Of a stretch of 64,000 nucleotides of DNA, positions 9,386 to 64,000 are shown in pieces. How positions within the stretch are numbered: position 1 is the stretch's first letter; every line of letters starts with the position of its first letter. The notes beneath the pieces are model-generated. The model was not told where the DNA came from. It saw only the letters and a program-made list of their open reading frames with translations, and searched no databases. The DNA comes from Lachnospiraceae bacterium 28-4 (GTDB lineage Bacteria; Bacillota; Clostridia; Lachnospirales; Lachnospiraceae), in contig KE159599.1 of NCBI GenBank assembly GCA_000403275.2, forward strand, positions 1,101,548 to 1,165,547, written 5' to 3'. Both the position numbers and the translations under genes were made by a program.

Positions 9386-10189
9386 TGTATCGTTTCCATT
9401 ATCCGGTATCCCCGTATTCCATTGTACCATATAATTTTCATCCCTGTATTTTTTCGGCGTTACTCCCACCGTTTCCCTGAATTGCTGTATAAAATGGCTC
9501 TGGGATGAGAAGGATAATCTGTTTGCAATCTCAATCATGGAATAATCGCTGAACCGCAGAAGGTTTTTGGCTATCGCAATCTTCTGCTCCCGGATATATT
9601 CACTTACAGATACGCCCGTCTCCTTCTTAAATAAACGGGACAAATAGCTGGCGGACACGCCAAACTCATCCGCCAGATCCTCGATGGTGATTCTGTCTTT
9701 AATATGGGAGTATATATATTCCTTACATGCATTAATATGTCTGGAATTTGTATCTTTCCTGAGGTATCTGTTCATTTTCTCTGTATAATCCAATACCATT
9801 TTATCATGCAGCTTCCGCACTCCCTGCACTGTATGAATATCATCCAGTTTCTGAATATAAAAATCACTCAGCCGAAACGCCTGTTCCAGCTCCATGCCGT
9901 TCTGTCTGCATAAGCGAGTCACCATTGCCGTTGTAATAACGAAATGGTACTTCAGATTTACTACCGGGTCTTTCGACAAAATCCCTACGCCGTCGCTCTC
10001 TACAAACCTCCCCATTTCGCAGTTTTCCCTTACTGCCCCCACATCTCCTCCGGCTACCGCATGATAAAACAAAAATTCTTCCGACGGCTGTCTGTGTTCC
10101 ATTTCATCTATATCGTCTCCGGACTCAAAAAGAAGCCATTCATTCCCATAACCCATATATGACAGCACCTCCACATAATCTACAGGCAA
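9371..10189 (-). CDS. AraC-family transcriptional regulator
   Basis: The protein has up to 272 residues. The C-terminal 100 residues hold two helix-turn-helix motifs of the AraC/XylS type (ITIEDLADEFGVSASYLSRLF and, later, SMIEIANRLSFSSQSHFIQQF, ending in GVTPKKYR). The N-terminal half has no cupin signature I recognise. The start is uncertain: TTG at 10189 has no clear ribosome site, whereas ATG at 10156 has GGAGGTG 11 bases upstream. The frame stays open up to a TAA near 10250 without another usual start, so an unusual start or a truncated N-terminus is possible. Position next to the GH94 genes suggests that it binds the inverted repeat at 3951-4017. Confidence 0.82.
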   Translation of the reverse strand: MPVDYVEVLSYMGYGNEWLLFESGDDIDEMEHRQPSEEFLFYHAVAGGDVGAVRENCEMGRFVESDGVGILSKDPVVNLKYHFVITTAMVTRLCRQNGMELEQAFRLSDFYIQKLDDIHTVQGVRKLHDKMVLDYTEKMNRYLRKDTNSRHINACKEYIYSHIKDRITIEDLADEFGVSASYLSRLFKKETGVSVSEYIREQKIAIAKNLLRFSDYSMIEIANRLSFSSQSHFIQQFRETVGVTPKKYRDENYMVQWNTGIPDNGNDTGAAT

Positions 10190-27542: not shown

Positions 27543-27644
27543 TGCCGCTGCTTCACAGCGGCACAAACCATCAGTAGGGAAAAACTTGCAAGCAAGTCTA
27601 GAAGTTCTTAGCGAAACGCCCTCTGGCGTGAGCTTTAGAACTTC
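27543..27644 (-). repeat. Cluster of three small palindromes at the treB-treC junction
   Basis: Three stems follow each other: TGCCGCTG/CAGCGGCA (27543-27563), ACTTGC/GCAAGT (27584-27597), and GAAGTTCT...ACGCC/GGCGT...AGAACTTC (27601-27644). The last lies inside the final codons of treB, so the end of that protein is encoded by palindromic DNA. They look like inserted REP-type units and may separate or stabilise the two messages. Confidence 0.55.
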
Positions 27645-29616
27645 TTTCCACACTAACTACCACCGTCTTTCCTGCCACGGCATCTATTCCCGTATGAAAA
27701 GATGCTTTTCCCCCGTTTCCCTGCTCGGTTATAATACATACTGTCGTATCCGGGTGCCCGGCCGCTTTGATTTTATCCCTGTCAAACCGGATCAGCGGGG
27801 TCCCTGCCGCCACGTCTTCCCCCTCTTTTACCAAATATTCAAATCCGTCGCCCTTCATATCCACCGTATCAATTCCTACATGCAGCAAGATCTCCATGCC
27901 GTTTCCCAGCCTCATTCCGCATGCATGGCGGGAGTCCTCCATTAAAATAGCGATCGTGCCGTCCACCGGCGCATAAAGGATATTGTTCTCAGGTATGATC
28001 GCAAGCCCCTCCCCCATAACGCCTTCGGAAAATACACCGTCTCCTACTTCTTTCAACGGAATCGCTCTTCCGCTCAAAAATGCTTTCCATTCTTTCGCAC
28101 TGCTTTTCACATCACCTTTTTGTCCGTCGCCTTTATCCGAATTTCCTTCCCCTCCGTTTCCATCTACGGAAAAAGCAGAATGTGCCGCCTGTGCCTGTGC
28201 CATTTCGGCAAATTTCTTTTTTCCAACCATAAAAGTAAGGATAAACGGCACACCTGCCGCAATCGCCATGCAGATTGCAAAGCTGACCATATATTTTGGC
28301 TGGATGGACAAGATTCCGGGAAGCCCTCCCACGCCGATCGCATTCGCTGTCGTTCCGGTAGCCACGCACACCACCGCCGCACAGGCCGAACCGATCATAC
28401 CGCATATAAAAGGATAAGCAAACTTTAAATTAACACCGAAAATAGCCGGTTCCGTTACGCCAAGATAACAAGAAATACAAGCCGGAACGTTCACCTCCTG
28501 TGCTTCCGCATCTTTTCTCTGGAGGGCAATCATTCCTAATACCGCAGAACCCTGGGCGATATTGGATAATGCGATCATCGGCCACAGCATCGTTCCGCCG
28601 TAATCCGCAATCAACTGCAAATCAATAGCATTTGACATATGATGAAGCCCCGTGATTACCAAAGGTGCATAAACAAAACCGAACACTGCCCCGAAAATAA
28701 CTTTAAACGAACCCGTAATCCCTGCATACACTACGGAAGAAATCACAGAACCTATTTTCCAGCCCACCGGCCCGAGAATAAAATGCGCTGCTATTACCGC
28801 CAGAAGCAGACTGCAAAACGGAACGACTATCATCGAAACCACCTGAGGCGTTATCTTCCGGAAAAATCTTTCCAAATATACCAACGTAAACGCTGCCAGT
28901 ATCGCCGGGATTACCTGCGCCTGATAGCCGATCATGTTCACCTGGAAGCCTCCGAAATTCCATACGGGAATATCCCCTGCCGCAGTCCCTGCCACAGCGT
29001 AAGCGTTCAACAACTGTCCTGACACTAATGTTAGTCCAAGTATAATACCTAACATCTGTGTCGTTCCCATCTTTTTTGTCACCGACCAACAGATACCCAC
29101 CGGAAGCATATGAAAGACCGCTTCTCCGATCAGCCATAAAAAGCTGTCGATCCCCGCCCAAAACTGGCTGATATCGCATAACGTCTTCGTTCCGTTTTCA
29201 AACAAATACAGACTATCGATACAATTTCTGAATCCCAAAATCAAACCGCCCGTAATAATAGCTGGAATCAGCGGAGCAAAAATCTCCGCCAGAGCGGTCA
29301 CGATTCTCTGAAGCACATTCTGGTTCTGCTTTGCCGCCTGCTTTACCGCATCCTTGGAAACCCCTTCGATTTCTGCCACAGCAACAAAATCATTATAAAA
29401 ATCTGCTACCGTATTCCCGATAATCACCTGGAACTGCCCTGACTGTGTAAAGCTCCCTTTTACCGCCTTCATTGCTTCAATCTTCTTCACATCCGCCTTT
29501 GCCGGCTCGTTCAAAACAAAACGCATACGCGTCATGCAATGCGATACCGCCGCAATATTCCCTTTACCTCCCACCAAACCGAGAAGCTCTTTCGCATCCT
29601 CTGCATACTTGCCCAT
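27598..29616 (-). CDS. treB: Trehalose PTS EIIBC with fused EIIA
   Basis: This 672-residue PTS permease has EIIB with the active Cys in VSHCMTRMRF, an EIIC membrane domain with TGLHHMSNAID and GVTEPAIFGVNLK, as in TreB proteins, and a C-terminal EIIA domain with the active His in ILLHVGIDTVDMKG. TreB of enteric bacteria lacks EIIA; fusion is common in clostridia. The last 18 residues (SVERSSKAHARGRFAKNF) are basic, lie within palindromic DNA and look unlike an EIIA tail, suggesting that a repeat has altered the end of the gene. The promoter has a TreR operator between -35 and -10. Substrate call rests on treC and treR next door. Confidence 0.9.
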   Translation of the reverse strand: MGKYAEDAKELLGLVGGKGNIAAVSHCMTRMRFVLNEPAKADVKKIEAMKAVKGSFTQSGQFQVIIGNTVADFYNDFVAVAEIEGVSKDAVKQAAKQNQNVLQRIVTALAEIFAPLIPAIITGGLILGFRNCIDSLYLFENGTKTLCDISQFWAGIDSFLWLIGEAVFHMLPVGICWSVTKKMGTTQMLGIILGLTLVSGQLLNAYAVAGTAAGDIPVWNFGGFQVNMIGYQAQVIPAILAAFTLVYLERFFRKITPQVVSMIVVPFCSLLLAVIAAHFILGPVGWKIGSVISSVVYAGITGSFKVIFGAVFGFVYAPLVITGLHHMSNAIDLQLIADYGGTMLWPMIALSNIAQGSAVLGMIALQRKDAEAQEVNVPACISCYLGVTEPAIFGVNLKFAYPFICGMIGSACAAVVCVATGTTANAIGVGGLPGILSIQPKYMVSFAICMAIAAGVPFILTFMVGKKKFAEMAQAQAAHSAFSVDGNGGEGNSDKGDGQKGDVKSSAKEWKAFLSGRAIPLKEVGDGVFSEGVMGEGLAIIPENNILYAPVDGTIAILMEDSRHACGMRLGNGMEILLHVGIDTVDMKGDGFEYLVKEGEDVAAGTPLIRFDRDKIKAAGHPDTTVCIITEQGNGGKASFHTGIDAVAGKTVVVSVERSSKAHARGRFAKNF

Positions 29617-29709: not shown

Positions 29710-29747
29710 CCGTTTTTTATTTTCTTTTTCATGATAATATGAGGCTG

Positions 29748-30070
29748 TCATATGTGGAAAGTTTGGAGGCCGGCAGGGCGGGGAATGGGATGGAGGCAGC
29801 CGGGAGCGGGGGTGGGATTTTCGGACTGTTGCGCACAATCAGCTATTTTACTTATGAAATGATCGATAGACAGGGAAAATCGCCAAGGAGGGCGATTTTA
29901 GGAAACGCAGGGCAGGATGCCCGTTGTTTCCGTCCCGTCCGGTTTGAAACGCTTACCCCATTTCATTAGTAAAATCTGATTGGAAGCTCCAGTCCGAAAA
30001 TCCCACCCCCGCTCCCGGCTGCCTCCATCCCATTCCCCGCCCTGCCGGCCTCCAAACTTTCCACATATGA
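29748..30070. repeat. Fold-back element A: 80-bp perfect inverted repeat with conserved core
   Basis: Bases 29748-29827 and 29991-30070 are exact complements over all 80 positions; I compared them base by base. The left arm is G-rich. The 163 bases between contain further stems: ATTTTACTTATGAAATG pairs with CATTTCATTAGTAAAAT (one mismatch), AAAATCGCC with GGCGATTTT, GGGC with GCCC, and GGAAAC with GTTTCC. The core edges, GTTGCG(C)ACAATC and CTGATTGGAAGCTCC, recur in element B at 63849-63896, where the arms have quite different sequence. It lies between the divergent treB and treR promoters. Confidence 0.85.
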
Positions 30071-30095
30071 TTTCCACATATGATCCCCGCCCTTA

Positions 30096-30143
30096 TTGAC
30101 ATCTTTCTTCTGCGTATTATAATAAATTTGTAATGTTTAAACA
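30096..30143 (+). promoter_or_regulatory. treR promoter with one TreR operator
   Basis: TTGACA (30096-30101), a 16-base spacer and TATAAT (30118-30123). The palindrome TGTTTAAACA at 30134-30143 sits just after the expected transcript start, which fits autoregulation. Confidence 0.82.
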
Positions 30144-30187: not shown

Positions 30188-30919
30188 ATGCCAAAAGCGA
30201 AGTATGATTTCATATATAAGGATTTAAAAAGCCGCATTGAAAATGGCGAATACGAGTTCCAGGAACTCCTCCCTTCGGAAAACCATCTCGTCCTCACTTA
30301 CGGCTGTTCCCGCAATACCGTCCGCCGGGCCGTTGCGGCTCTCGTTACGGACGGCTATGTCCAGACGATGCAGGGGAAAGGCGTGCGCAATATATTCGAA
30401 CCCGCGCAGCAGACTTCTTTTACTTTAGGAGGCATCGAATCTTTTAAAGAATCCGCCCTCCGCAACCGGCAGACGCCGAGAACAAAAGTCCTTTGCTTTA
30501 CCGAACTGACCGCCGATGAAAAAATTTCAAAAAAAACCGGATTTCCCCCCGGTTCGCAGCTTTACTATCTCCAACGGCTCCACTATCTGGATGATAAAGC
30601 ACTGATTCTCAACCACAATTATTTTTTAAAGGATATCGTGCCTTCCCTGACTCCGGAAATCGCTGAAAATTCCATCTATGAATATTTGGAAAATACGTTG
30701 CGCATTTCCATCGTTACAAGCAAAAGAGTCATGACTGTGGAAAAAATGACGCAAATAGATGAAAAATACCTGGAGCTTGGGGATTATAACTGCCTTGCCG
30801 TCGTCAGCAGCCAGACATATAACAGCGACGGCATCATGTTCGAATATACCCAGTCCCGCCACAGACCGGACTACTTTCGGTTTCAGGATAACGCAACGCG
30901 GCGGCCAGCATCACACTGA
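30188..30919 (+). CDS. treR: GntR-family trehalose operon repressor
   Basis: This 243-residue regulator has an N-terminal GntR winged helix (IYKDLKSRIENGEYEFQEL, LPSENHLVLTYGCSRNTVRR) and a C-terminal UTRA ligand domain (YYLQRLHYLDDKALILNHNY, and the end FEYTQSRHRPDYFRF). This is the TreR/FarR pattern; the expected inducer is trehalose 6-phosphate. AGGAGG lies upstream of the ATG at 30188. Three TGTTTAAACA palindromes, two at treB and one at its own promoter, are the obvious operators. It is divergent from treB, with fold-back element A between. Confidence 0.92.
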   Translation: MPKAKYDFIYKDLKSRIENGEYEFQELLPSENHLVLTYGCSRNTVRRAVAALVTDGYVQTMQGKGVRNIFEPAQQTSFTLGGIESFKESALRNRQTPRTKVLCFTELTADEKISKKTGFPPGSQLYYLQRLHYLDDKALILNHNYFLKDIVPSLTPEIAENSIYEYLENTLRISIVTSKRVMTVEKMTQIDEKYLELGDYNCLAVVSSQTYNSDGIMFEYTQSRHRPDYFRFQDNATRRPASH

Positions 30920-63950: not shown

Positions 63951-64000
63951 CTCCCTCCGCCATGGCACTTATCAAAATGGATTTCCGCGTCCCCCATCCA

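Follow-up and report, generated by a model that had tools for sequence, protein, structure and literature searches.

What is a 323-bp fold-back doing between the treB- and treR-like genes of a Lachnospiraceae bacterium, and what keeps its long arms complementary? The structure lies in a stretch of 64,000 nt from Lachnospiraceae bacterium 28-4 (GCA_000403275.2, contig KE159599.1, positions 1,101,548-1,165,547 of the forward strand), which we call the window; the genome from which it comes (G000, here the own genome) is 4.28 Mb in 7 contigs. A preliminary description had placed two 80-nt perfect arms at 29748-29827 and 29991-30070, with nested stems between them, and had named three possible reasons for their perfection: recent origin, gene-conversion-like correction and selection. 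We call the neighbouring genes treB and treR by inference from their Pfam content. The features of the locus are as follows.

27598-29616, minus strand: PTS EIIBCA gene (treB-like), from Pfam
29733-30085, no strand: entire inverted-repeat element with imperfect outer arms, from an inverted-repeat search
29748-29827, plus strand: left arm, 80 nt, perfect complement of 29991-30070; it is rich in G and forms the 5′ arm on the RNA strand
29829-29989, plus strand: loop, TwoAYGGAY RNA (RF01731) with a type A core; 81.6 bits, gathering cut-off 43, model positions 1-168 of 168
29876-29899, plus strand: first hairpin inside the core; its stem is AAAATCGCC/GGCGATTTT and its loop AAGGAG, so not strictly AYGGAY
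29901-29931, plus strand: second hairpin inside the core, GGAAAC...GTTTCC topped by GGGC AGGAT GCCC
29991-30070, plus strand: C-rich right arm, complementary to the left arm at every position
30058-30083, plus strand: tandem duplication of 13 bp, TTTCCACATATGA, at the right arm's outer end
30096-30101 and 30118-30123, plus strand: sigma-70-like promoter upstream of the treR-like gene, -35 TTGACA and -10 TATAAT, by eye
30188-30919, plus strand: GntR/UTRA regulator gene (treR-like), from Pfam

The hairpin and its loop

The fold-back is reproduced at exactly the coordinates first given. Its perfect arms enclose a loop of 163 nt, for which folding predicts the nested stems, and the inverted repeat extends outwards to arms of 115 nt (29733-29847 and 29971-30085) that are 90% complementary. 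Folding of a 351-nt stretch gives -258.4 kcal/mol, compared with -120.0 ± 5.4 kcal/mol for 100 dinucleotide shuffles (z = -25.8). The perfect run of 80 nt is long, not extreme; among the 105 hairpins of the arm analysis below the median is 48 nt and the maximum 128 nt.

An Rfam scan of the whole window returns a single match, which is the loop itself: TwoAYGGAY (RF01731) at 29829-29989, scoring well above the gathering cut-off and thus a member of that family. The own genome has at least 62 further RF01731 matches, all above the cut-off, and 14 control genomes have none. RF01731 matches together with blastn, which adds diverged copies, give a set of 78 copies including that of the window, and the terminal sequences described below give 3 more. 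Long arms are present in 78 of these 81, i.e. the window and at least 77 others; the 3 copies that are devoid of arms were left out of the arm analyses. An absence of related copies would have counted against the preliminary description, and the search had the opposite outcome. With 77 further long-armed copies, a chance origin of the window hairpin is excluded.

There are two types of core, A (that of the window) and B, found in 56 and 21 of the own-genome hairpins, respectively; C3:333827 and two hairpins of genomes G001 and G002 are neither, and were left out. Some copies are irregular. L174, L177 and L181 in the own genome appear by eye to be solo halves of the element ending within the core, the form that deletion of one arm would leave. 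L168 (1024-1442) has type B-like arms that are 99% complementary over 120 nt and an unrelated loop of 179 nt, and its palindrome extends 18 nt into the flank.

RF01731 is present in 12 of 16 genomes of the genus and, under stricter filters, in 25 of 150 of the family. The arms vary between lineages. Median arm lengths in the own genome and its sister species G009 are roughly 90-105 nt, while four copies read in G004 have arms of ~70 nt with a common sequence, and 12 copies in G001 and G002 have only 33-65 nt. Arms in other genera run from 30 to 97 nt with more mismatches (22 copies), and four of these genomes inspected by eye have different outer sequences, TGTCAAAAGG. Since the arms differ by lineage, long near-perfect arms are a lineage trait. 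G004 also contains core-less mini-hairpins of 67-86 bp that retain the family tips (L233-L235). Several draft contigs stop at or just past an element (L192, L196 and L208, at contig ends of G009), so assemblies tend to break there.

A mobile family, and its place between treB and treR

Elements of the family are ~230-460 bp in size and carry shared tips, CACGGAAATCAATTTT, that occur at 93 places in the own genome with up to 2 mismatches, compared with 2 for the reversed pattern. The target site duplications (TSDs) outside these tips were initially judged by eye and afterwards tested against shuffled pairs, using the 53 elements with both tips from the own genome, G009 and G004. The 9-bp flanks match at a fraction of 0.629 (0.269 ± 0.022 when shuffled), and in 17 of the 53 they differ at no more than one position; the best of the other lengths tried, 10, reaches 0.343. 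The family thus has terminal inverted repeats and a duplication of fixed length, 9 bp only. The window copy itself has neither the canonical tip, compared by eye, nor a recognizable TSD. A stray tip-like sequence, CGCGGAAATCCATTTT, lies near the end of the window at 63974-63989 on the minus strand.

The preliminary description had stressed that the hairpin stands between two divergent, TreR-controlled promoters. This setting looks incidental, given some 80 dispersed copies. L088 is a close relative whose TreR is 97% identical; there the gap between treB and treR is present and the element is not. No match to the element was found in the treB-treR stretches of 22 relatives, 2 of which include N and a few of which have other genes upstream. 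The promoter boxes of the treR-like gene are intact beside the element, and L088 has similar boxes. Repeats around GTTTAAAC, which we take to be TreR operators, fall outside the element. In favour of a cis-regulatory function in the trehalose operon, exerted together with TreR, are the position between divergently transcribed genes and an outer end that lies ~10 nt upstream of the treR -35-like box. Yet the family is dispersed, its RNA strand has a mixed orientation to neighbouring ORFs, and the 22 stretches, 2 of them with N, yielded no match, so that we give such a function almost no credence. The element is probably a passenger at this locus, with no role there.

Orientation was counted for 78 copies using rough ORF calls, setting aside ORFs that overlap the element. 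The RNA strand is divergent from the neighbouring ORF in 29, antisense in 23, sense in 18 and convergent in 8. Rfam assigns RF01731 to the type Cis-reg; a fixed orientation upstream of one class of gene was not found among these copies, and in the passage concerned PMC2864571 scores TwoAYGGAY as probably not cis-regulatory.

One site is filled in one species and empty in another (L205/L181), the flank having diverged. Together with the tips, the 9-bp TSD, the element-free site of L088 and the mixed orientation, this makes the element MITE-like. There is strong evidence that the window hairpin is a mobile palindrome built around TwoAYGGAY. As the TSD is strictly 9 bp, the enzyme that moved the element into the gap between treB and treR would be a DDE transposase.

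Search for a mobilizing enzyme

No autonomous partner bearing the family tips was found among the tip pairs of the own genome, the one candidate of G004, or the genus tip matches listed. The own genome has 25 convergent tip pairs with spacings of 34-441 bp, and none at 700-4000 bp. The G004 candidate, a tip-bounded stretch of 1.45 kb (L228), contains a 381-aa ORF that by eye looks like a ROK-type regulator, and it was rejected as an autonomous element. We compared the transposases matching PF06782 and PF01609 in G000 and G004; the ends of the ISLre2-like (PF06782) and DDE_Tnp_1/IS4-like (PF01609) elements differ from the family tips, and both were rejected as mobilizers.

The IS4-family element has a different relation to the hairpins. 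It is 1591 bp long with ends TAATGTCATTAAGTTAGGCTTTG and a 10-bp TSD, and encodes a 440-aa transposase (NF033592, above cut-off). We examined 8 copies (L256, L258 and L260-L265) from the 20 PF01609 matches of the own genome. Six of them, one a fragment, sit in type A elements, within the loop of the first AYGGAY-type hairpin, the equivalent of the first inner hairpin loop in the window; for L261 and L265 only one end was read. The remaining two have TSDs CGGAGGAAGG and GGCAGGAACC. Its ends differ from those of the hairpin element, of which it is not the mobilizer.

How the arms change and remain complementary

The arms were analysed in 105 hairpins, 77 from the own genome and 28 from G009, the latter drawn from 30 regions among 53 RF01731 matches. 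Within a copy the two arms agree at 9587 of 10056 aligned columns, or ~95%. Between copies of one type the left arms have median identities of just 0.53-0.64, compared with 0.79-0.89 for the cores.

The preliminary description had proposed looking for compensatory changes between strains, and we made that comparison with the sister species. Four type A sites are common to G000 and G009, with flanking stretches 82-91% identical and cores that rank 2, 1, 2 and 1 of 56 as mutual matches. In these orthologous pairs the arms have 93 paired and 38 unpaired substitution columns, together with 98 paired gap columns and 32 others. The pair L213/L074 contains an unpaired block, as expected if correction proceeds by tracts. 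At L210/L007 the arms are no longer mutually closest (rank 47 of 56). In one of the four pairs, L215/L063, the loop is inverted relative to the flanks, a single case.

The same pairs bear on the idea that complementary arms are made anew at each transposition, by fold-back synthesis of one arm, so that perfect arms mark young copies. Arms do differ among copies, and some TSDs are perfect over 9 bp. Yet in the four orthologous pairs the arms are 85-99% complementary within a copy and nevertheless different between the species. We regard fresh synthesis as very unlikely, and it is disfavoured.

Mismatches within the arms are informative in their own right. Those in the interior are clustered, with 114 close neighbours compared with 73.9 ± 5.8 expected, and the rate rises from 2.9% beside the core to ~7% outward. 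Read on the RNA strand they comprise 128 G•U and 124 A•C, i.e. there is no excess of G•U. In 3 of 64 copies the palindrome continues past the tips, by 18, 12 and 11 nt; the shuffled mean is 0.19, and a count of 3 was also reached by shuffles at least once in 500. Beyond its first 25 nt the 5′ arm is 46.8% G and 18.5% C. The GC skew of this arm is positive or zero in 104 of the 105 hairpins, despite widely differing arm sequences.

Could selection on an RNA maintain the arms? On this account the element encodes an RNA, either a long double-stranded sRNA or a substrate of RNase III, and the arms are kept paired by ordinary compensatory mutations. Its core is conserved and structured, the paired changes are numerous, and the G-richness of the 5′ arm sets the two strands apart in a way for which an RNA could account, although PMC8794818, in the part dealing with this bias, attributes G-C over C-G to template switching. 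Against it, the arms lack the G•U excess, the mismatches are clustered in tracts, and complementarity persists where the core has been replaced (L168) or is absent (the mini-hairpins of G004). We consider RNA selection on the arms unlikely.

Paired changes, clustered mismatches, the lack of G•U excess, the loop inversion, the palindrome extension and L168 together point to template switching at the level of DNA. Paired, tract-like change with no G•U bias is seen in the arms, and inversion of the spacer between fixed arms in the one case of L215/L063. After insertion, the arms would gather changes quickly. DNA synthesis that switched template across the hairpin would copy one arm onto the other; this would keep the arms complementary, sometimes flip the loop, and sometimes lengthen the palindrome into the flanking host sequence. 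At the level of sequence, the arm pattern fits such hairpin-templated correction better than it fits RNA-level selection, and that template switching keeps the arms complementary is well supported, if not proven. Of the origins first proposed, it is gene-conversion-like correction that is best supported, because the arms of copies predating the species split have diverged and yet stay complementary, with clustered mismatches and no surplus of G•U; recent origin is not needed. Taken as a whole, we think it likely that the hairpin is a non-autonomous, MITE-like element lodged between treB and treR, with arms kept by template switching.

Conservation of the core

The core behaves differently from the arms. 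Its stems have 54 G•U and 25 A•C mismatches (P = 0.0015). A single base pair contributes 19 of the 54, and when it is removed the counts become 35 and 22. Because the excess shrinks in this way, the case for RNA selection is no more than suggestive even in the core. The core nonetheless seems to be conserved for its own sake, either because it is expressed as an RNA or because mobility depends on it.

A passage of PMC4333381 suggests that TwoAYGGAY has a CsrA-titrating role, and the copies might then be CsrA-titrating RNAs spread by a mobile element. The AYGGAY-type hairpin loops are conserved and csrA is present in the own genome. However, within the genus the two do not occur together consistently: G006, G007 and G015 have csrA and lack the RNA, while G003, G005 and G012 have the RNA with no csrA match (these are drafts, G003 and G012 being incomplete). 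The loops in the window are AAGGAG and AGGAT, at which binding is putative. We judge this role rather unlikely.

Possible turnover at fixed sites, and neighbouring copies

Some sites are occupied by different elements. A type B element, L198, and a type A element, L169, share the same left flank to the same base; their TSDs are CTGCGATTT/CTGCGATTC and CTGCGTTTT/CTTCCATCC, the second poorly matched. A further site is occupied by L197 and L019, both of type B yet unlike each other; the arms of L197 have a similarity of 0.90 to a different G009 copy and of 0.56 to L019. Either case could reflect replacement in place or a hot spot. Four shared or candidate type B sites were rejected as orthologs; their cores rank 5, 10, 21 and 20 of 21, and because of these poor ranks the pairs were not counted.

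Where two copies lie no more than 600 bp apart, they are divergent (-/+ order), in 17 of 17 pairs. Six are in the own genome, where all 6 of 6 among the 78 copies listed follow the rule (e.g. G000:C3:653045/653430), and 11 of 11 are in other genera (9 in G086 and 2 in G021), a count that covers 83 of 92 matches in five genomes. The cores of own-genome pairs are mutual best matches in 4 of 5 tested, the fifth ranking 7 of 55, with arms at background; in the G009 pair L216 the core ranks 9 of 9. An origin of the pairs as one duplicated composite is rejected for G086, where the members of the 9 pairs are not closest relatives.

We raise as a tentative possibility that hairpins are rewritten in place, the arms being self-templated and residents overwritten by another subfamily at the same site and TSD. 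If true, a mobile family would spread in two ways, by transposition and by hairpin replacement, its structured loop RNA being strand-ordered in neighbouring copies.

Comparison with known systems

TwoAYGGAY, whose full model the window loop matches, has been an orphan RNA. It now gains a context, as the loop of a mobile palindrome and not the leader of particular genes. In the literature consulted, passages on TwoAYGGAY do not present it as the centre of a palindrome that moves and duplicates its target; the name is absent from PMC8040213 by term search, and among the titles listed in literature searches no paper on the hairpin element was found. The family also holds a caution for covariation-based discovery of RNA. 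Covariation of a stem would otherwise count as proof of a functional RNA, and the covarying arms here need not mean RNA selection.

Bacterial MITEs such as Correia/NEMIS, RUP and bcr are short elements with terminal inverted repeats and TSDs, present in many dispersed copies, and the hairpin family shares all of these properties. It differs from them in being almost wholly palindromic, in having arm sequences that are mostly private to each copy, and in carrying a named structured RNA as its loop, with no autonomous partner found among the tip pairs.

REPs and REPINs are likewise dispersed palindromes. Insertion sequences reportedly target REP sequences, much as the IS4-family element targets the hairpins. 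To our knowledge REPs have no TSDs, and the RAYT enzymes are of the HuH/Y1 class. The hairpin family, by contrast, has the strict 9-bp duplication that points to a DDE transposase, and an identity with REP/REPIN is rejected on the ground of that TSD.

The closest parallel for the behaviour of the arms lies in quasipalindrome correction by template switching. In the parts that bear on this, PMC8604942 describes arm homogenization and spacer inversion via template switching in short repeats, and PMC8794818 the maintenance of hairpins by template switching in RNA genes; tract-wise homogenization of the arms and inversion of the spacer are found here too. More than 100 hairpins, some of them orthologous, provide natural replicates with which to measure template-switch correction of long bacterial palindromes. 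While the examples in those passages are short repeats or RNA genes, here the process would act on arms of ~100 bp, in a mobile family, and over the time that separates species.
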